Source: Ramicandelaber brevisporus (Eukaryota > Kickxellomycota > Ramicandelaberales > Ramicandelaberaceae). Taken from it: a stretch of 62,731 nt of DNA. The stretch is from positions 11,091-73,821 of the forward strand of contig MU602720.1 in NCBI GenBank assembly GCA_025201865.1, in the 5' to 3' direction. Shown in pieces: positions 43,440-54,091 of this stretch. How positions within the stretch are numbered: position 1 is the stretch's first letter; each line of letters opens with the position of its first letter. Below the pieces are notes generated by a model. The model was not told the origin of the DNA. It searched no databases and saw nothing but the letters and a program-made list of their open reading frames with translations. The position numbers were made by a program, and so were the translations under genes.

Positions 43440-43441
43440 TA
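43440..43441. repeat. TA target-site duplication, left
   Basis: The dinucleotide TA directly precedes the left terminal repeat and recurs directly after the right one (47,130-47,131), as expected of Tc1/mariner-like (IS630-type) integration. Confidence 0.7.
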
Positions 43442-43509
43442 CACGGGTGGGCCGCCCCCACGAAAAATTTAGGAAGACTTGTATGACAGGGGATTTTTAC
43501 GTAAAAGCA

Positions 43510-44698
43510 TTCCACACCGAGTTGATATAAGCACTTGGAGAGCAATGGCCACCGCTCTAATCACGACCAGATGACCAGGTTAGACCGGATCGTCACATTA
43601 GGCCTTGTCCGGATTAGACCAGTTGTCTGCACGAAGCAGACATTAAGCCGAGAGCCCTTGTACGTTGCATTGTATATCGGGGGGGGGAGTAGCGAGCATC
43701 GACGACGGAAGGTGCGACCAGGCGAGTAGACCGCAGAACCGAGCGGATGCAGGCAGAGTTGTGCTAAATCAGCAATTGGGGTGACCAAACCGCCTTGAAA
43801 GAGGCGGCACGAGCGACAAGAAGCAACCAAGCGTGGACCGGCGAAGAGGAGGGAACGGCCGGCGAGAAGGGTGTCTACGCGAAGTGAGGACCGAGGTGGC
43901 GTAGACGACGGAAGCAGCAGCTGCAGGAAACGGACGAGCAGACCGACAGGGAAGGTGGTTGTCTTGAAGGGTCGAGGTGCAAACGACGGTGGCGCGACCA
44001 GAAGGCACGAGCACACACGTGCGGTGCAGAGGGAAGGGGGAAGAGGTGCGAGTGGGAAAGAGACGGTGCGGTTCAGGGACAAAGCAGAAGGACGAAGAGG
44101 GAGGGAGGGGATGAGACACAGAAACAAACAGACACGGGAAAGGATGGTAGTTGTGCTGGGTGAGATGGCTGCCTTATTATACACTCAAGGTACAGCAGTA
44201 GTAGCACTCAGGAACGAAACACGGCTGATACTCGATTCGCTGGTTGGCGAGTTTGTTGATAGAGAGGAGAGAAAGACTCCTTTGAGAAAGAGCAATTAAG
44301 ATGCGAAAGCCAAAGGAGTGTTTGCTCTGTTTGGCTGATAGGCTTCGACAACGGTCGATAGAAGATGGTTGGAAGGTTGAGTCTTCGACTCACAATGGAG
44401 TTGGGGGTAGAGTGAAAATCATTGCGTGGATAATTTGTTACGTGTCGTTCGCTCGTGGACCCAGCCCGGCTACAGAGTGTTTGCGTGTGCGCGTTCTCTT
44501 TTCTACGCAGAGTGGCGAACCTCCTTTGGTCGAACATCGCCTCTAGCAGTATCGTTCGTCGCTGTTTCGGCGCGCGCGTCCGTGTCGTTCGTCGCGCCTG
44601 CAGCTCTCTCTCTTTTGTTGTTTACTCTTTTCCTCTCTCTATATCGACTCTGCCTACTACTTTCTTTCTCTTTGTTTTTTTTTTTTTCGAGATTAGAG
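43510..44698 (+). other. Upstream region of the Fanzor element, purine-rich, no confirmed gene
   Basis: About 1.2 kb between the left terminus and the Fanzor start. From about 43,680 to 44,300 the plus strand is strongly G/A-rich and T-poor, unlike host intergenic DNA. It contains a 142-codon open frame (43,871-44,299, Arg/Gly-rich) and a 207-codon frame on the other strand, neither with recognisable domains. The final 200 nt are pyrimidine-rich, ending TTTTTTTTTTTTTCGAGATTAG just before the ATG; this probably holds the promoter and leader. Confidence 0.5.
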
Positions 44699-46858
44699 AT
44701 GGCAACAGACAGCAGTGCAGCCAACAAAGTGACTATTGCCAACCAGACTCTCTATGTCGGCAAGGAAAAGGTCACGTCTGTCGTTGTCATTCCCGGCAGC
44801 GCTTACTATCGAGCACAGGTTGAAGTGCCTGGTGTTGACATCACAATGAAGGCGCCAATTAAATATCATCAGCCACTACCAACAATGACACGTTTGGAAG
44901 CAGCTCGCGCACCTCTCGCACAGGCACTTGGCGCAAGTGGTCCATCTTTGCCAACAGATATTATGGATGATCCAGTCATGGCTGTGTTGAATTCTGAGCA
45001 ACGTCAGAAACTCAGTGAAGGACGTGAGGAGATGGCTCGGCTGGTATATAGCCAAATAGTTTCGAACTGGCGCCATTTGCCAAGGTGCACGCGCTGCTGG
45101 CCACAGCTTGCCGCGTCAATTCGTTACTGGGTGATTCACTTCGGCAATCATGTACTTGGCACCAATATGAAGCGTGGTGTGCGCATTCAACAGCACAACC
45201 TTCATCATCGTGGCCGTATCGAGCATGATTCAACTCATGATGTCACCATCAAAGGTCCATTCATTCTTGCCTGCGATGCTGGTGTCAAGCGTCCTGGCGA
45301 GTTTGTTGCAGCACACATCAACCAGCCGGAGTTACTCGATATCTACATGGCTGCAGTCGAACTGGTGCTGAAGAAGATGAAGTTTGTTCCTATTGATGGT
45401 GAAAAACCACGACAGATTGGTAACTTGCTGGGTGAATTGGCTAATGCACTTCAGTTCCGCTCTCGATTCTGCATAAATCGGTTAATGATTGACTCATTAT
45501 ACGCCAAAAGCGGAAGAACTGCAGTTGGCAACTACTCAGAAACCCAGATGCAGAATATGTGGGCTGCGCTGCATCACTTGTTTGTTGATTTTCCAGATGA
45601 CATTATTCAGCCTCTGCTCAATTCTGGTCCAGGCACTGAGCAACGCAGCAGTTTGGTTAGCAATCTGATTGATGGATATATAATGAACAGCGAGTTCCGC
45701 CAGACATTGGTTGAACTTCTACCAACTCAATCATCATTGTCATCCTCATCAGAACAGCAGAGTGACGAACGCGCCATCTTACATCGAATTGTGGACTCTT
45801 TTGTTGACTTTCTGAAGCTTGTACCAGATTGGAAAGACACTGCCAATCTCGCGTTATTGACACAGCAACCAGTCTTATCAAACAACTCTCAACGTCTGAG
45901 TACAGCAATTAGAAACTGTCGTGCTCTCCGTCTGAATTCGGCACTGGTTGCTCGTTTCAATGATGTTTTGAACGTCAACAGACACACAGTTGGCAGCGAA
46001 CTGGCTCGCTATATCTACGACCAGTTCCCACCCAACAGCAAGATTGTAGTTGCTATTGGCGATGCATTTGATGGTTCACACAGTACTCCAGCATTGACAC
46101 GCTTACTCGCTGACAATATCCCAATCTTTTACTCGCCAGAGTTTAGATCATCACTGCTCTGCTTCATGTGCTCTTCCGTGACAGTGCCGGCCGCGACTGG
46201 TACTTACACACAACACGTCACAGCTGACGTCGAGCACACTGGCACTGCAACCTCATTGACATCGCAGCGTGCTTCTAAGAGTCAAAAGAAGCTTAGTTCT
46301 CGTTACCGATACTGCCTGGAATGCAAATTACACTTCAATCGAGACACCTCAGCAGCCTTCAATATACTCAGAAACACGCTAACGATCATCTGTAACATTC
46401 AACACAAGAAGGCAGCTGGTGAGTCATTCGATAGTTACATGCAGCTGGGTCGCTCCGAGTTCATACGCAGTCCAAAGGTCAGACCAAACTCTGAGCAGCT
46501 GGCTAAACTCAATGCCAATCGCACGGCTCGCAGAAACGCAGCCAGAGAGAAGATACAGCAAAGTGGTAACACTCAGGAGCTCGCTAATGACATCATTGCC
46601 TCCAACAGAGAGCGACAGGAGGTTGTGACTCGGTTGCAGCTATCCAATGATTTTGCCACCAGTCAGCTTGCTAGTTTAGTTGCGAGTTTGCCACATGGAA
46701 AGCTTAATGCTGAAAACCGAAGGAATTTCAACCATAGAACTTTCAAACTAGCCGCAAACAATGCTCGAATCAAAAGCATCAAGGCCAGTATTGAATGTGA
46801 GGATGCACGTCGTAATGTTCTTTTAAATATCGCCAACAGTGCTGGCTCTAATACTTAA
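44699..46858 (+). CDS. Fanzor (eukaryotic TnpB-like RNA-guided nuclease), Fanzor1-type
   Basis: A 719-residue protein of the Fanzor family, relatives of TnpB and Cas12, known to cut DNA guided by an RNA encoded at the element end. Visible parts: an N-terminal region with a C-x2-C pair (Cys130, Cys133); a probable RuvC-I strand FILACDAGVKRPGEF with Asp193; a central helical region of about 250 residues; the RuvC-II strand KIVVAIGDAFDGS (Asp455 near the canonical Glu position); then SPEFRSSLLCFMC, where Glu481 is the displaced catalytic glutamate typical of Fanzor. The zinc finger is Cys488/Cys491 with Cys539/Cys542, and RuvC-III is FNRDTSAAFNI with Asp549. The C-terminal 160 residues are basic and helical. 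The frame extends upstream to 44,426, but those residues look like a translated leader; ATG 44,699 is chosen. It appears intact. Confidence 0.88.
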   Translation: MATDSSAANKVTIANQTLYVGKEKVTSVVVIPGSAYYRAQVEVPGVDITMKAPIKYHQPLPTMTRLEAARAPLAQALGASGPSLPTDIMDDPVMAVLNSEQRQKLSEGREEMARLVYSQIVSNWRHLPRCTRCWPQLAASIRYWVIHFGNHVLGTNMKRGVRIQQHNLHHRGRIEHDSTHDVTIKGPFILACDAGVKRPGEFVAAHINQPELLDIYMAAVELVLKKMKFVPIDGEKPRQIGNLLGELANALQFRSRFCINRLMIDSLYAKSGRTAVGNYSETQMQNMWAALHHLFVDFPDDIIQPLLNSGPGTEQRSSLVSNLIDGYIMNSEFRQTLVELLPTQSSLSSSSEQQSDERAILHRIVDSFVDFLKLVPDWKDTANLALLTQQPVLSNNSQRLSTAIRNCRALRLNSALVARFNDVLNVNRHTVGSELARYIYDQFPPNSKIVVAIGDAFDGSHSTPALTRLLADNIPIFYSPEFRSSLLCFMCSSVTVPAATGTYTQHVTADVEHTGTATSLTSQRASKSQKKLSSRYRYCLECKLHFNRDTSAAFNILRNTLTIICNIQHKKAAGESFDSYMQLGRSEFIRSPKVRPNSEQLAKLNANRTARRNAAREKIQQSGNTQELANDIIASNRERQEVVTRLQLSNDFATSQLASLVASLPHGKLNAENRRNFNHRTFKLAANNARIKSIKASIECEDARRNVLLNIANSAGSNT

Positions 46859-47129
46859 CTTTTTGATGTCTTTTTAACTTTCTATTCGATTAAAAGACGT
46901 TTGTAGTGCGGCTTGCCGCTTGTGTGTAGGATCGTCGCTGCGAGTGTCGTTCGCAATTCTAATAATACGCATAATTGTTCACGGCCAGCATGACACATGC
47001 TTTTTTACGTTAAAGACAACACCCAACCACGCCAGTGCTTTTTTTTTTACGTAAAGTGCATGTGATTGCGTAAACAATTCTGGAAATCCTGTAGGATAGA
47101 AGATTTTACGTAAAAACGGCCCACCCGTG
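46859..47129 (+). ncRNA. Candidate guide (omega/fRNA) region at the element's right end
   Basis: In TnpB and Fanzor elements the guide scaffold is transcribed from the 3' end of the nuclease gene to the element terminus, with the guide just beyond it. Here the 271 nt after the stop are rich in perfect hairpins: GCGGC-TT-GCCGC (46,908-46,919), TGCGA-7 nt-TCGCA (46,939-46,955) and GCATG-ACA-CATGC (46,988-47,000). A long-range pairing AATTGTT (46,973-46,979) with AACAATT (47,073-47,079) could close the domain, followed by the TTTTACGTAAA palindrome and the terminal repeat. Location and structure support the call; expression is not shown. The same segment is present as a near-identical copy at 48,818-49,088 because of the probable assembly duplication. 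Confidence 0.55.
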
Positions 47130-47338
47130 TATGTTTGACTTTAGTACTTTCTTTGCTTTTCTGGCCAAATAAAGATTGAAAAATGAAGATAGAGTAAGCG
47201 AAGAAAGAAATGATGGTAAAGGGTGAAATATGCAGATGTGTGAGAAAGAAAGATGCAGGTGTGAAGTAAAGTGAAACAAAAAAGTTGAGTAATGCGAATC
47301 AAGTGAGTAAATGATGAGATAAATGCAAAAGGGAAGGT

Positions 47339-48772
47339 TTAGAAATCAACGGGTGGTTGATCCATTGGGAACGATTCTGGACCCGGCGCTGACATATCTG
47401 GAGCAAATGATTCGGGTGTCGTGTCTGGGAACGGTGCAGGTTCAGGTACAGCTTCGTTAACCATTGGCGGCTCAACAGCAGCAGTCATGGCATCTGGTTC
47501 TGGACCTGGAGTCTGCCAGGCTGGTTCTGGGAGCTGAGCAGCAGGTTCAGGGAACGACATTGGGTCAGCTTCGGCCACTGGTGGGATATCGACCGGCTCG
47601 ACAGCTGGGCTAAAGTCAGGCATCGGTTCTGGGCTGACAGGAGCAGATTCCGGCATTGGAGGCTCAGATGGCTCTGGAGCAGGACCGACATCCGGCATTG
47701 GCGCATCCATTGGCGCATCCATTGGCGCATCCATTGGAGGAGGAGCTTCCATGGCAGGCTCAGGCATTGGCTCAGCCTCTGCAATCGGAGGTAAATCACC
47801 ATCCGGAGCTGGTGCCACATCCATCGATGCCGGTTCGGGACCAGGGCCTGCATCGGGTGGTGGCATGTCCATTGGAGTAGATTCTGGAGCAGGCGCAGCA
47901 GCTTCATCCATCGGCGGTGGACCAGCATCTACCGGACCTGGTGCACTCACATCCTCAGGCATCGGTGCGTCCATCGGTGCGGATTCAGGCTCGGGGCCAA
48001 CATCGGGCATTGCTGGCATATCAATTGGCCCAGCATCTTCTGGGGCAGGGCCAGCATCAACTTCAGGAGCCATGTCCATTGGAGCAGATTCGGGCATTGG
48101 TGGCATGCCAGCATCTTCTGGAGCTGGGCCAACATCAGCTGGAGGAGCCATGTCCATTGGAGCAGATTCAGGTTCAGAGCCACCAGCAAAGTCTGATGGA
48201 GCAGGGCCAGCTTCAACTGGAGGAGCCATGTCCACCGGAGCAGACTCGGGCATACCAAAATCTTCTGGAACAGACTCGGGCATTGGTGGCATGCCAGCAT
48301 CCTCTGGGGCAGGCCCAACATCAGGAGGAGGAGCATCCATGGAGTCGGCAGGTTCAGAGCCACCGGCAAAGTCTGGGGCTGGACCAGCGTCAGAAGGAGG
48401 AGCATCCATTGGAGCAGATTCAGGCTCAGAGCCACCAGCAAAGTCTGATGGAGCTGACATATCGGCGCCAGCATCAGGAACATCACCGCCGCCGCCACCG
48501 CCGCCGCCAGCATCCGCATCCGGAGAACCAGCAAGTGAGCGGCCGTTCTTTCCTTTGCCATTCTTTCCTTTGCCGTTCTTGCCCTTGCCGTTCTTGCCCT
48601 TGCCACGACCTCCTTTGCCGCCTTTGCCGCCCTTGCCACCACGGCTGCTTCGACCTCCTTTGCCACCACGAGCACCCTTGCCACCGCGGCCACCTCTACT
48701 TCCTTTGCCGCCACGAACGCCCTTACCACCGCGGCTACCTTTGCCGCCACGTCGCCCACCAGGTCTGTTACG
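47339..48772 (-). pseudogene. Truncated duplicate of the C-terminal part of the secreted polyampholyte gene
   Basis: Identical in coding content to the 3' part of the gene at 49,298-54,091. It runs from the stop codon at 47,339 to the gap, covering the acidic Asp/Ala/Gly/Pro/Met repeats and the beginning of the Gly/Lys-rich segment. It has no 5' end because the sequence stops at the N run. It is most likely not a real second gene but the other side of the contig overlap. Confidence 0.8.
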
Positions 48773-48782
48773 NNNNNNNNNN
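48773..48782. other. Assembly gap (10 N)
   Basis: Run of ten undetermined bases joining two sequence blocks that overlap by 1,949 bp; the arbitrary-looking length suggests the gap size is a placeholder. Confidence 0.98.
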
Positions 48783-49297
48783 TAAATATCGCCAACAGTG
48801 CTGGCTCTAATACTTAACTTTTTGATGTCTTTTTAACTTTCTATTCGATTAAAAGACGTTTGTAGTGCGGCTTGCCGCTTGTGTGTAGGATCGTCGCTGC
48901 GAGTGTCGTTCGCAATTCTAATAATACGCATAATTGTTCACGGCCAGCATGACACATGCTTTTTTTACGTTAAAGACAACACCCAACCACGCCAGTGCTT
49001 TTTTTTTACGTAAAGTGCATGTGATTGCGTAAACAATTCTGGAAATCCTGTAGGATAGAAGATTTTACATAAAAACGGCCCACCCGTGTATGTTTGACTT
49101 TAGTACTTTCTTTGCTTTTCTGGCCAAATAAAGATTGAAAAATGAAGATAGAGTAAGCGAAGAAAGAAATGATGGTAAAGGGTGAAATATGCAGATGTGT
49201 GAGAAAGAAAGATGCAGGTGTGAAGTAAAGTGAAACAAAAAAGTTGAGTAATGCGAATCAAGTGAGTAAATGATGAGATAAATGCAAAAGGGAAGGT
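48783..49297. other. Second copy of Fanzor 3' end, element right terminus and flank
   Basis: Repeats 46,824-47,338: the last codons of the Fanzor frame, the hairpin-rich 3' region, the right terminal repeat ending at 49,088 and the following TA. It is not an independent element, since no left end accompanies it. Confidence 0.85.
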
Positions 49298-52200
49298 TTA
49301 GAAATCAACGGGTGGTTGATCCATTGGGAACGATTCTGGACCCGGCGCTGACATATCTGGAGCAAATGATTCGGGTGTCGTGTCTGGGAACGGTGCAGGT
49401 TCAGGTACAGCTTCGTTAACCATTGGCGGCTCAACAGCAGCAGTCATGGCATCTGGTTCTGGACCTGGAGTCTGCCAGGCTGGTTCTGGGAGCTGAGCAG
49501 CAGGTTCAGGGAACGACATTGGGTCAGCTTCGGCCACTGGTGGGATATCGACCGGCTCGACAGCTGGGCTAAAGTCAGGCATCGGTTCTGGGCTGACAGG
49601 AGCAGATTCCGGCATTGGAGGCTCAGATGGCTCTGGAGCAGGACCGACATCCGGCATTGGCGCATCCATTGGCGCATCCATTGGCGCATCCATTGGAGGA
49701 GGAGCTTCCATGGCAGGCTCAGGCATTGGCTCAGCCTCTGCAATCGGAGGTAAATCACCATCCGGAGCTGGTGCCACATCCATCGATGCCGGTTCGGGAC
49801 CAGGGCCTGCATCGGGTGGTGGCATGTCCATTGGAGTAGATTCTGGAGCAGGCGCAGCAGCTTCATCCATCGGCGGTGGACCAGCATCTACCGGACCTGG
49901 TGCACTCACATCCTCAGGCATCGGTGCGTCCATCGGTGCGGATTCAGGCTCGGGGCCAACATCGGGCATTGCTGGCATATCAATTGGCCCAGCATCTTCT
50001 GGGGCAGGGCCAGCATCAACTTCAGGAGCCATGTCCATTGGAGCAGATTCGGGCATTGGTGGCATGCCAGCATCTTCTGGAGCTGGGCCAACATCAGCTG
50101 GAGGAGCCATGTCCATTGGAGCAGATTCAGGTTCAGAGCCACCAGCAAAGTCTGATGGAGCAGGGCCAGCTTCAACTGGAGGAGCCATGTCCACCGGAGC
50201 AGACTCGGGCATACCAAAATCTTCTGGAACAGACTCGGGCATTGGTGGCATGCCAGCATCCTCTGGGGCAGGCCCAACATCAGGAGGAGGAGCATCCATG
50301 GAGTCGGCAGGTTCAGAGCCACCGGCAAAGTCTGGGGCTGGACCAGCGTCAGAAGGAGGAGCATCCATTGGAGCAGATTCAGGCTCAGAGCCACCAGCAA
50401 AGTCTGATGGAGCTGACATATCGGCGCCAGCATCAGGAACATCACCGCCGCCGCCACCGCCGCCGCCAGCATCCGCATCCGGAGAACCAGCAAGTGAGCG
50501 GCCGTTCTTTCCTTTGCCATTCTTTCCTTTGCCGTTCTTGCCCTTGCCGTTCTTGCCCTTGCCACGACCTCCTTTGCCGCCTTTGCCGCCCTTGCCACCA
50601 CGGCTGCTTCGACCTCCTTTGCCACCACGAGCACCCTTGCCACCGCGGCCACCTCTACTTCCTTTGCCGCCACGAACGCCCTTACCACCGCGGCTACCTT
50701 TGCCGCCACGTCGCCCACCAGGTCTGTTACGTCCGTTGCGTCCACCAGGTCCATTACGTCCACTGCGACTACCTTTGCCATTGCGACCAATGCCACGGCC
50801 ACCACGACCACTACGACTAGTGCCACGAGCGCCACGAGCGCCACGACTACCACGACCACCACGACGAGTGCCACGGCCAGTATCACGATTAGTGCCACGG
50901 CCAGCGCTACGGCCAGTGCTACGAGCGCCACGACCAGTGCTACGACCAGTACTACGACGAGTGCCACGACTAGTGCTACGACTAGTGCCACGGCCAGTGC
51001 TACGAGCGCCATTCTTGTTACGGCCACCAGCACCACGAACGCCACGCTGACCCACTCCGCGTTTATTCTGACCGCCCAAGCCGCGCTGTGAGCGTGGTCC
51101 ACCACGCGTGCCGCGCGAACCAAGGTTGCGATTACGTTTACCACCAAGACCACGCGTTGCTGGGGAACGACCGCCCTTGCGCTGGCCACGATTGGCAGAA
51201 CTGCGCGGAAGCTGGATGCCACGACCACGGCCACGCTGGCGATTCGGGGTGCGGTTACCACCTTTGCCAAGCACGTTGCGGCCCTTTGTGGCTGGACGAC
51301 CAGACCTGCTTCGTGGAGCAGCACGGGAGCCTTTACCAAACATGCCACCAAACAGATTGCTTGACTTGCGTGGACCACTCTTGCCAATGTTGCGACCAGA
51401 TGGATTGCGTGACTTGCGCGGACCATTCTTGCCACTGCCACCAAACAGATTGCGTGATTTGGTTGGGCCAGTCTTTGGACGACCACCGCGAGACTTCGGC
51501 AGACCGCCTTTACCGATGGAGCCGCGACCATTGCCGCCAAACAGACCTCGCATTTTGGATGGGCCAGCTGTGCGTGGGCCAGCTGTGCGTGGACCAATCT
51601 TCGGACGACCACCGCGAGACTTGGGCAGACCGCCTTTACCGATGGAGCCGCGACCATTGCCGCCAAACAGATTGCGTGGCTTGGTTGGACCAGTCTTTGG
51701 ACGACCACCACGAGACTTGGGCAGGCCGGACATTTTGTTTGGACCATTTCGTTTAGTGCTGCCCAAGCCACCAAACAAGCCAGTGCCAGGACGCTTACCA
51801 GTGTTGCGCTTGAGGCTGTTCATGAGTGAGCTGCCCGTTCCAGCCTTCTTCAGCGGTCCAGCGCGCGGACGAGTACCACCTAGCTTGTTGCCACCCAAGA
51901 TGCTCTTTGGAGATCCAGTCATACGGCGAGGAATACCAGGAACATTCAAGCGCTTGTTGGCACCACGAGCAGCTGGGAGACTCGGCTTGCCAAGCAGACT
52001 GCTCTTGATGGATGGACGGCCTTTGATGTTGCGGGCAGACGGCGGCAGGATGCCCTTGCCGAATGGAAGCGATGGCTTACCCGGGACACGACCATTGCTA
52101 CCCTTGGGGCGAAGACCGAGAGGTGAACCTGGCAGACGCAATGGAGTCTTGTTGCCGAATCCATTGAGCAGCGGAGCACGCTTCGGCGACATTGGAGATG

Positions 52201-54091
52201 ACTTGATGCGGTTCAAGCCACCAAATGGCGGAGTCTTGCGACCACCAAGGCTGAGAGATGGAGCGCGAGACTTGCCTGGCTTCACGCCAACCGAACGAGG
52301 ACCACTCTTGGGAATGGTGCCAGTACGCTTGCCAGTCAGTGAAGGAATCAATGGACGAGGACCTCCAGGCTTGCCAACCGCTGGCTTCAACGAGCGATTC
52401 GCCTTTGCTGGGCCTTTAGTACTGAGACCAAGCTTGCCACCAATTGAGCGTGCCGGTGGAATTGGCCCTTTACCAACAGCTGGCTTCTTGGGCCGAGTAG
52501 CAGAGCCCATGCCTCCACGCTTCGGAGTGCCAATGCCAATGCCACGGCCGCTCTTTAGTCCAGGTGCAAATGGAGCGCGAGGTGACTTTGGACCAGATGC
52601 CAGTGGAGTCTTTGGCGTGAACTTGGGCTTGCCAGCAGGCTTGAACGGACGCGAGTTTGTGCTGCCACCAAGGATGCCGGGCTTTGGACGACCAACGAGA
52701 CGCGGATTAATAGCTGGCTTAGCCTTCGGTGGTGTCTTTGGCTTGGTGACGGCGTTTGAACCCGGTGTAGTCTTGCGTGTCTTGGGTGTTACTGGCGACT
52801 TCTTCTGCTGCTGCTGCTGTCTGGGCTTCTGTGGCTTGTTGAGCTTTGGCTGCATACTCGGCTTCTGCTGCTGCCTTGGCTTTGGAGTAGCTGCACGAGG
52901 CTTCTGCTGCTGCTGCGGTTTCGGCTGCTTGTTCTGTTGCTTCTGCTGTTGCTGCTTTGGCTTGTTGAGCTTTGGCTGCATGCCCAACTTTGTAGTCAAT
53001 GTACGAGACTTTGGCTTTGGAGTCGTTGCACGAGGCTTTGGTTGCTGCTGTCTGGGTTTCTGCTGCTGCTGCTTTGGCTTTGGAGTCGCTCCACGAGGCT
53101 TTGACTGTTGTGACTTTGGCTGCTGCTTGGGCCGCTGCTGTTGCTTCTGAGGAAAGTTAAGCCTTGGCTTCTGTGGCTTTGGTTGCTGCTTGGGTTTGGA
53201 AACGGCTCCATTGGGCTTTGGCTGTGACTTTGGCTGCTGCTTCGGCTGCTTCTGCTTCTGCTGTTGCTTAGGCTTGGATGTGGCTCCATTAAACTTTGGC
53301 TGCTGCTTTGGCTTGGAGGCGGTTCCATTGGACTTTGGCTTCTGCTGCTGCCTTGGCTTTGGAGTCGCTGCACGAGGCTTTGGCTGTGGAGTAGTTACAC
53401 GAGACTTTGGCTGCTGTTGCTGCTGCTTCTGCGGCTTGTTAAGCTTTGGCTGCTGACTGGGCTTCTGCTGCTTGGGCTTGGAGGCGGCTCCATTGGGCTT
53501 TGGCCGCTGCTGCTGCTGTGGCTTCGGCTGTTTCTGAGGCTTCTGAGCTGGTCGTTGCGCTGGTGCCTTCGGTGCCTTTGGCTTCGGCGGCGATCTAGCA
53601 GGCGGTTTCGACGGATTCGACTTTGGCTTCTGAGCCGCAGGCTTCTGTTTCTTTGGTGCAGGCTTCTTTACTGGAGCTGGCTTTGGCTTAGGAGCTGGCT
53701 TTGGAACCGGGGCTGCGCGCTTCGGCGGTGGAGCTGGCTTCGGGGCTGGCTTTGGCTTTGGAGCTGCGCGCTTCGGCGGTGGAGCTGGCTTCGGGGCTGC
53801 GCGTTTTGGTGGTGGAGCTGGCTTTGGTGCTGGTGGTGGAGCTGCACGCTTCGGTGGAGCTGGTGCTGGAGCTGCGCGTTTCGGTGGTGGAGCCGGCTTT
53901 GGAGCTGGAGCTGGCTTCGGGGCAGCGGCTTTAGGTGGTGGAGCCTTTGGAGCTGGTGGAGAGCCACCACCGCCGCCTTTGCCTTTGCCACGGGGTTCTG
54001 GCAGCGCTTCAACTACGAGAGCTGAAAGGAAGAGAATCGCCATCAAGATGGCCGATATCGCAGTCCAAACACTGCCTGGACCACGAGCCAT
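49298..54091 (-). CDS. Giant secreted low-complexity protein with basic body and acidic tail
   Basis: The 1,597-residue product starts with a signal peptide or anchor (hydrophobic AISAILMAILFLSALVVEA). After it come, in order: Pro/Ala/Lys repeats (PPKRAAPKPAP, about 35-190), Lys/Gln/Pro repeats (KPKQQPK, to about 440), a Lys/Arg/Gly/Pro region with recurring GRPKTGPTKPRNLFGGNGRG units (about 750-900), Arg/Gly/Thr repeats (RSTGRGTSRST, about 990-1,100), Gly/Lys repeats (RGGKGSRGGKG, to about 1,200), and a final 380 residues that are acidic and built of DAGPAPEDAG and MDAPP units. The mature protein has almost no hydrophobic residues outside the signal. No family is recognised. It is probably an extracellular matrix, cell-wall or adhesive protein. 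The charge split between body and tail is striking. Confidence 0.75.
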   Translation of the reverse strand: MARGPGSVWTAISAILMAILFLSALVVEALPEPRGKGKGGGGGSPPAPKAPPPKAAAPKPAPAPKPAPPPKRAAPAPAPPKRAAPPPAPKPAPPPKRAAPKPAPPPKRAAPKPKPAPKPAPPPKRAAPVPKPAPKPKPAPVKKPAPKKQKPAAQKPKSNPSKPPARSPPKPKAPKAPAQRPAQKPQKQPKPQQQQRPKPNGAASKPKQQKPSQQPKLNKPQKQQQQQPKSRVTTPQPKPRAATPKPRQQQKPKSNGTASKPKQQPKFNGATSKPKQQQKQKQPKQQPKSQPKPNGAVSKPKQQPKPQKPRLNFPQKQQQRPKQQPKSQQSKPRGATPKPKQQQQKPRQQQPKPRATTPKPKSRTLTTKLGMQPKLNKPKQQQQKQQNKQPKPQQQQKPRAATPKPRQQQKPSMQPKLNKPQKPRQQQQQKKSPVTPKTRKTTPGSNAVTKPKTPPKAKPAINPRLVGRPKPGILGGSTNSRPFKPAGKPKFTPKTPLASGPKSPRAPFAPGLKSGRGIGIGTPKRGGMGSATRPKKPAVGKGPIPPARSIGGKLGLSTKGPAKANRSLKPAVGKPGGPRPLIPSLTGKRTGTIPKSGPRSVGVKPGKSRAPSLSLGGRKTPPFGGLNRIKSSPMSPKRAPLLNGFGNKTPLRLPGSPLGLRPKGSNGRVPGKPSLPFGKGILPPSARNIKGRPSIKSSLLGKPSLPAARGANKRLNVPGIPRRMTGSPKSILGGNKLGGTRPRAGPLKKAGTGSSLMNSLKRNTGKRPGTGLFGGLGSTKRNGPNKMSGLPKSRGGRPKTGPTKPRNLFGGNGRGSIGKGGLPKSRGGRPKIGPRTAGPRTAGPSKMRGLFGGNGRGSIGKGGLPKSRGGRPKTGPTKSRNLFGGSGKNGPRKSRNPSGRNIGKSGPRKSSNLFGGMFGKGSRAAPRSRSGRPATKGRNVLGKGGNRTPNRQRGRGRGIQLPRSSANRGQRKGGRSPATRGLGGKRNRNLGSRGTRGGPRSQRGLGGQNKRGVGQRGVRGAGGRNKNGARSTGRGTSRSTSRGTRRSTGRSTGRGARSTGRSAGRGTNRDTGRGTRRGGRGSRGARGARGTSRSGRGGRGIGRNGKGSRSGRNGPGGRNGRNRPGGRRGGKGSRGGKGVRGGKGSRGGRGGKGARGGKGGRSSRGGKGGKGGKGGRGKGKNGKGKNGKGKNGKGKNGRSLAGSPDADAGGGGGGGGDVPDAGADMSAPSDFAGGSEPESAPMDAPPSDAGPAPDFAGGSEPADSMDAPPPDVGPAPEDAGMPPMPESVPEDFGMPESAPVDMAPPVEAGPAPSDFAGGSEPESAPMDMAPPADVGPAPEDAGMPPMPESAPMDMAPEVDAGPAPEDAGPIDMPAMPDVGPEPESAPMDAPMPEDVSAPGPVDAGPPPMDEAAAPAPESTPMDMPPPDAGPGPEPASMDVAPAPDGDLPPIAEAEPMPEPAMEAPPPMDAPMDAPMDAPMPDVGPAPEPSEPPMPESAPVSPEPMPDFSPAVEPVDIPPVAEADPMSFPEPAAQLPEPAWQTPGPEPDAMTAAVEPPMVNEAVPEPAPFPDTTPESFAPDMSAPGPESFPMDQPPVDF

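Follow-up and report, generated by a model that had tools for sequence, protein, structure and literature searches.

Fanzor proteins are the eukaryotic relatives of TnpB and act as RNA-guided, DNA-cutting enzymes. The prototype of the Fanzor1 group is SpuFz1 of Spizellomyces punctatus, whose element, SPu-1, is described as carrying a Fanzor gene only, between inverted ends and a putative TA duplication, and as being accompanied by ORF-less "ghost" elements that share its ends (PMC3627910; PMC10432273). In SpuFz1, metal coordination is reported for D383, N385, E541, and D606 (PMC10432273). Fanzor-only elements that lack their own transposase, such as PUl-4, are also described within Tc/mariner (PMC3627910), and these likewise have terminal inverted repeats (TIRs) and a TA duplication. 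Another Fanzor1, PpFz1 of Parasitella parasitica, is reported to have an extra insertion of about 100 residues in its RuvC region and a short TAM, 5'-ATN, and most Fz1 proteins are given there as 600–700 aa long (PMC11423790). Fanzor1 has already been reported as common in early-diverging fungi (PMC10432273).

The locus considered here lies in a window of 62,731 nucleotides (contig C54:11091-73821), meaning the whole stretch of DNA that was analysed, from the 17.9-Mb, 510-contig assembly of Ramicandelaber brevisporus. This soil fungus is placed in the Kickxellomycotina in the NCBI taxonomy. The locus likely encodes a Fanzor1-like protein as the sole gene of a non-autonomous DNA transposon of the cut-and-paste type, for which an intact ORF, a zinc finger and RuvC-III of TnpB type, an alternative Glu, paralogs with DPG, purifying selection, TIRs, and ORF-less relatives all speak. 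The type of system appears to be a known one, with a layout like that of SPu-1, and what departs from it is the motif DAG, the spacing, a missing TDG, and a long tail. An earlier sequence-only reading had proposed the nuclease; the transposon setting with its inverted ends and ORF-less relatives was not part of it. In the open-licence library searched, no paper was found that names Ramicandelaber together with Fanzor, or Ramicandelaber brevisporus together with the word transposable. Ramicandelaber proteins may already be among the 649 eukaryotic proteins of PMC10432273.

The ORF (44699..46858, plus strand) encodes 719 aa. Its reading frame is open from a GTG at 44426 as well as from the ATG at 44699, which is the first residue in the numbering of the protein (P0001), and the stop ends at 46858. 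The frame is thus uninterrupted, as had been claimed, and the three presumed catalytic residues are present where they had been placed: Asp193 (PFILAC-D-AGVKRPGE), Glu481 (PIFYSP-E-FRSSLLCF), and Asp549 (KLHFNR-D-TSAAFNIL), the last within the pair R548-D549. CxxC motifs occur at positions 130, 488, and 539, and the latter two, C488/C491 and C539/C542, have 47 residues between them (C491 to C539), as the sequence-only reading had it. E481 precedes the zinc finger (C488) by six residues, which is the position of the alternative catalytic Glu in the Fanzor fingerprint of PMC10711439, and both this Glu and the catalytic residues are invariant in the paralog set A1. The published motif [TS][TS]xx-C4 zinc finger-x(5,50)-RD (PMC3627910) is found as SSLLC..C, C..C, KLHFN, and RD. 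An invariant G454 precedes E481. A conserved Gly ahead of the Glu is reported for Fanzor1 (G500 and E536; PMC3627910), and G454 is a candidate counterpart of G500. The N-terminal LP-x-C-x2-C motif (residues 130–133) is also invariant in the Ramicandelaber proteins compared and is possibly a second metal site.

The claim of a "full" TnpB/Fanzor architecture holds in part. The motifs are in order, with the C4 zinc finger, RD, and Glu, but DAG replaces DPG, and D193 is 290 residues from the Ser pair (likewise in the relatives at C7 and C69), which is beyond the 125–275 residues of the published motif (PMC3627910). An unanchored search with that spacing is satisfied in the window protein only from a different Asp. 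The TDG motif, reported in the WED domain of Fanzor1 (PMC10711439), is absent from all seven proteins P0001–P0007, of which P0006 and P0007 are incomplete models. Because the DPG and the spacing fail and TDG is absent, the protein is not filed as a canonical Fanzor, while by its descent and layout it can be described as Fanzor1-like.

The departures are clearest when residues are counted against known proteins. The alternative Glu and the last Asp are 65 residues apart in SpuFz1 (E541, D606) and 68 in the window protein (E481, D549). In contrast, the RuvC-I Asp is residue 383 in SpuFz1 and 193 in the window protein, and the distance from it to the Glu is 158 in the former and 288 in the latter, or 130 longer. 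After the last Asp there are about 27 residues in SPu-1-1p (633 aa, D606) compared to 170 in the window protein. This tail is basic (26 K+R, 14 D+E, and 8 G+P of 163) and may be helical or coiled. A direct sequence match to SpuFz1 is not detectable. As for PpFz1, the insertion there (the FRI domain) binds cyclophilin; the extra length of the window protein sits between RuvC-I and RuvC-II, and its long C-terminal part is a difference. The N-terminal part is near TnpB size, the RuvC-I Asp being residue 180 in TnpB P0009 (whose invariant D, E, and D are 180, 267, and 348). However, the invariant Glu of TnpB lies 87 residues past the RuvC-I Asp in 14 of 14 proteins (P0009 numbering), whereas that of the window protein lies directly before the zinc finger.

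The altered RuvC-I motif could be read as the sign of a Fanzor derivative that no longer cuts and has become an RNA-guided DNA binder. DAG is found in all four proteins of the window clade, which is a difference from SpuFz1. The other Ramicandelaber relatives have DPG in seven cases out of seven, and Fanzors are reported to be near exclusively DPG in RuvC-I while TnpBs vary there (PMC10711439). Such a loss of cutting is nonetheless quite improbable, as none of the four proteins has lost any of the three acidic catalytic residues, the residue past the Asp is described as non-catalytic and varied in TnpBs (PMC10711439), and GtFz1, in which the third residue of the RuvC-I motif is Asn, is reported to keep its activity (PMC11423790). 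The window protein would presumably be guided by RNA and cut DNA.

The membership of the protein in the TnpB/Fanzor family was judged by profiles. A profile search had been suggested as a check. The library models gave weak matches under their cut-offs, with the Pfam TNB domain PF07282 at E 7e-4 and 20.2 bits against a cut-off of 26.3 bits, and the NCBIfam model guided_TnpB at E 3e-4, far under its own. PF07282 matches all seven members of set A1 at E ≤ 0.1, and no NCBIfam TnpB match was found in the four paralog proteins scanned. By hhalign, six Ramicandelaber proteins align to 14 TnpBs at 94.3% (E 9.6e-8, 53 columns). This alignment pairs up the Ser pair, all four Cys, and the RD, covering the zinc finger and RuvC-III that the protein shares with TnpB of IS200/IS605 and IS607 and leaving RuvC-I outside. 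The controls score far lower, with 40 column-shuffled profiles at ≤ 0.9%, the reversed profile at 0.1%, and mariner transposases of the same genome at 0.03%. The four sequences of the window clade alone reach 60.1% (E 8.6e-5, 37 columns) against TnpB, and 99.8% (E 7.6e-29, 432 columns) against the DPG paralogs (P0005, C7, C69, and C32). Since the latter alignment begins in the N-terminal CxxC region and extends as far as RuvC-III, D193 is supported as the RuvC-I Asp, even though the TnpB alignment stops short of it.

It follows that an unrelated transposon protein with a zinc ribbon acquired by chance is hardly credible. Besides the sub-cut-off Pfam and NCBIfam matches, one could cite in its favor that none of the solved Fanzor chains (the library including three of Fanzor1) is matched at E ≤ 10 by the window protein or its profiles, and that homologues were found in one species only among the 8000 candidates scored per search. 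Yet the shuffled, reversed, and unrelated controls are far under the real profile match, the motifs (RuvC-I, G-D, alternative Glu, C4, and RD) follow one another in the right order, and there are paralogs with DPG. Matches to solved structures were all non-significant, and among the best for the protein's own profiles are TnpB-type nucleases, at E 0.1–1. By profile homology, then, the window protein is supported as a member of the TnpB/Fanzor superfamily, as the sequence-only reading had it.

That reading had also suggested a divergent lineage, and this is supported. The named relatives in the protein database, P0002–P0007, are all six hypothetical proteins of Ramicandelaber brevisporus, and no homologue was found outside this species among 5.8 billion proteins. 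Because 8000 candidates were scored in each of the three protein searches, this is an absence at that sensitivity. Ordinary sequence searches linked the lineage to no other organism. Neither a typed Fanzor-like probe nor A11 retrieved any relatives in searches for related loci, and DNA motif scans of viral contigs for reference Fanzors gave nothing. A scan of genome contigs for the same motifs gave one match, a chance one that lay outside any TnpB ORF.

The ORF sits in an element of 3688 bp (3.69 kb). Its left TIR, the 13-bp CACGGGTGGGCCG, is at 43442..43454 (plus strand), and the complement forms the right TIR at 47117..47129 (minus strand). TA flanks the element on both sides (43440..43441 and 47130..47131) as the two probable copies of a 2-bp target duplication. 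Allowing one mismatch, a genome scan with the 15-bp end including TA gave 33 sites compared to one for a reversed control, and the 33 include an assembly duplicate at window position 49076. Inside the TIRs there is a subterminal direct repeat, GGAAGACTTGTATGACAGGGGATTTTTACGTAAAA at 43472..43506 on the left and its copy at 47082..47115 on the right (both plus strand); the two ends of the window copy are 75% identical in direct orientation over 44 bp (E 1.4e-4). The duplicate at 49076 comes from 1.95 kb that is present twice (46824-48772 and 48783-50731, 99.85% identity) around a 10-N gap (48773-48782). The arrangement looks as if the ends of two contigs overlapped and had been joined across a token gap, and the right end there is thus probably not real. 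ORFs on the minus strand at 47339-48460 and 49298-54091, partly doubled by this artefact, encode a highly repetitive protein rich in Pro, Ala, Met, Asp, and Glu.

In the family as a whole, every one of the 12 left ends has a T at -2 (those of C160 and C6 having been reassigned by hand from a right-end label), and 17 of the 19 right ends have one at +1, with the assembly duplicate and the solitary C57 and C32 ends, whose interiors are unrelated, left out. Of 10 complete elements, six are flanked by the same dinucleotide on both sides, the other four being TT/TA, TT/TA, TG/TA, and TG/CA. Since they agree in 6/10 pairs, a TN duplication is likely, though short of proof, and the target-adjacent motif would be T plus A, G, or T. 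The element differs here from those of the PUl-4 type, whose TIRs match known mariner families, in that the flanks in its family are not strictly TA. Its TIRs place it in the setting of a eukaryotic DNA transposon, as expected of Fanzor1, rather than in that of IS607. The Resolvase family PF00239 had no match in the genome at E ≤ 0.001 (the control being positive in 10 of 14 genomes), so the serine recombinase that marks Fanzor2/IS607 did not turn up and the layout is not the IS607-Fanzor2 one.

Elements with the same ends and no ORF are also present. All six inspected end pairs that are 1.17–1.37 kb apart (C122, C130, C141, C374, C453, and C46) lack the ORF; two further pairs of kb size, C146 and C159, lie outside this sample. 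All six keep the 5' non-coding region (43442..44283 in the window, plus strand, 84–93% identical) together with the final ~86 bp, and all but C46 also keep the block directly upstream of the ORF (44475..44573, plus strand). Smaller elements with these ends measure 198 bp (C282) and 78 bp (two, at C160 and C376). By eye, the 78-bp elements (L026/L040 for C160 and L052 for C376) consist of a left tip, one subterminal repeat, and a right tip, and they could be products of recombination between the direct repeats.

No transposase was found between ends that match those of the Fanzor element, and a search of the genome with PF13359 gave none. DDE_3 has three matches in the genome, none above the cut-off; mariner-like DDE_3 transposase ORFs of 326–382 aa were seen in L052 (721-1866), L050, and L051. 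The mariner-type ORF at C376 was considered as the matching transposase, being near a 78-bp element with the ends of the Fanzor element, and was rejected because its own ends, TAGGTAGTGACAAAAG by eye, are unrelated to those of the window element. PF03184 had no match in the genome and, its control also being zero everywhere, is uninformative.

The assembly holds three full-length copies of the gene, in the window, at C185 (89%), and at C38 (87%), all of them unbroken, and a partial copy at C485. The last is 99.8% identical to C185 over 4730 bp and is thus probably the same locus or haplotype. A further copy known from the database, P0002 (90–91%), was not located in the assembly; its contig there measures 52 kb. 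By the Nei-Gojobori method, dN/dS is 0.242 for window/C185, 0.198 for window/C38, and 0.214 for C185/C38, and the corresponding values for the last 144 residues are 0.181, 0.160, and 0.211. When decay without selection was simulated 500 times at 0.12 substitutions per site, every run gave at least 3 stops, with a mean of 9.0. The copies of the window family are under purifying selection. More distant relatives, 22–27% identical, are found at C32, C453, C7, and C69.

In a rival account, the Fanzor family was kept by the host (exapted) and the protein serves the cell, for example against mobile DNA, a single copy or its promoter having been acquired secondarily by a TIR element. In its favor, no CACGGGTGGGCCG end (≤2 substitutions) occurs in the 9.5 kb around the C185 copy, which is yet intact and selected, the long basic C-terminal part is under selection, and the DNA similarity of C7 and C69 is limited to the coding region and a few bases, with dN/dS of 0.369 for residues 60–560 and 0.398 for the whole. 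However, the window copy has both ends and the TA duplication, the blocks upstream of the Fanzor ORF are present in the ORF-less elements, as would be expected if these arose from such an element by deletion, and selection between copies may reflect a lineage of active elements, all of which makes exaptation unlikely. The C185 copy itself shares its upstream blocks with the window copy, the 3' sequence diverging past 46903, and the left side of the C38 copy is beyond the contig end. A wider reading is likewise doubtful. In it, selection maintains in Ramicandelaber a small family of Fanzor-type nucleases that diverged long ago, several of which no longer have a visible link to a transposon. With their remodelled layout (a TnpB-sized N-terminal part, an enlarged RuvC-I/II insertion, a long basic C-terminal part, and DAG in one clade), they would be candidates for RNA-guided nucleases adopted by a eukaryotic host.

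In the transposon reading, which is preferred, the protein would bind an RNA transcribed from the right end of the element, with a 3' tail from the flanking DNA; the guide would be drawn from the sequence that starts with the right TA. The protein would recognise the short left-flank motif, with its T at -2, and then the guide sequence, and the re-joined empty site would be cut by the RuvC site D193/E481/D549. Cutting would favor the copying back of the element by repair, and the element would be moved by a transposase supplied in trans.

By its position, the right-end region (46993..47129, plus strand), which is shared with ORF-less elements and ~81–82% identical to the C38g and C141 elements, is a candidate scaffold for the guide RNA. 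Right ends are well conserved, with a mean column identity of 84% over 16 ends, and RNAalifold gave 14 of them -7.57 kcal/mol, with z scores against shuffled columns of -1.84 (95 nt) and -4.32 (140 nt). Covariation of the window's predicted hairpins over the 16 ends was not above that of shuffles, the score being reached in 86 of 500 and the double-change pairs in 30 of 500. Pairing cells made up 82.7% compared to 82.1% when shuffled and 31–60% when slid. Because covariation is no greater than in shuffles, and conserved ends could equally serve a transposase, the guide RNA is a positional guess. The window and six loci had no Rfam match. A conserved 3' module of C185 and C38 was also considered as the guide RNA and rejected. 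It is inverted in the window copy (46902..46962, minus strand, 82% over 61 bp, E 5.7e-10), lies forward downstream of the ORF in C185 and C38, and has 20 genome matches, so it is more likely a dispersed repeat of ~190 nt with a hairpin-forming 3' core (L073–L077 and L071).

If the window protein cuts, the sequence range of Fanzor1 would be widened by a lineage that is almost beyond the reach of profile searches, DPG would be shown to be dispensable, and there would be a natural case in which an N-terminal part of TnpB size is combined with a large RuvC insertion and with a C-terminal part that is new. Otherwise, this is another Fanzor element among the early-diverging fungi, where the group is already common. 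Because copies that are intact and under selection coexist with ORF-less elements that share their ends, a direct test of whether Fanzor aids the persistence of non-autonomous elements is also possible.

Two other Fanzor-like clades, both with DPG, were seen in this fungus. The second clade (L018 4109-6583, L019 4141-6810, and P0005–P0007) has long acidic low-complexity insertions within the zinc finger. The third (C32 and C453; L016 3272-5728 and L017 7484-9757) has E-H-N-[ST]-S ahead of the zinc finger as well as an additional CxxC in the N-terminal part, and its C453 copy carries one internal, in-frame TGA.
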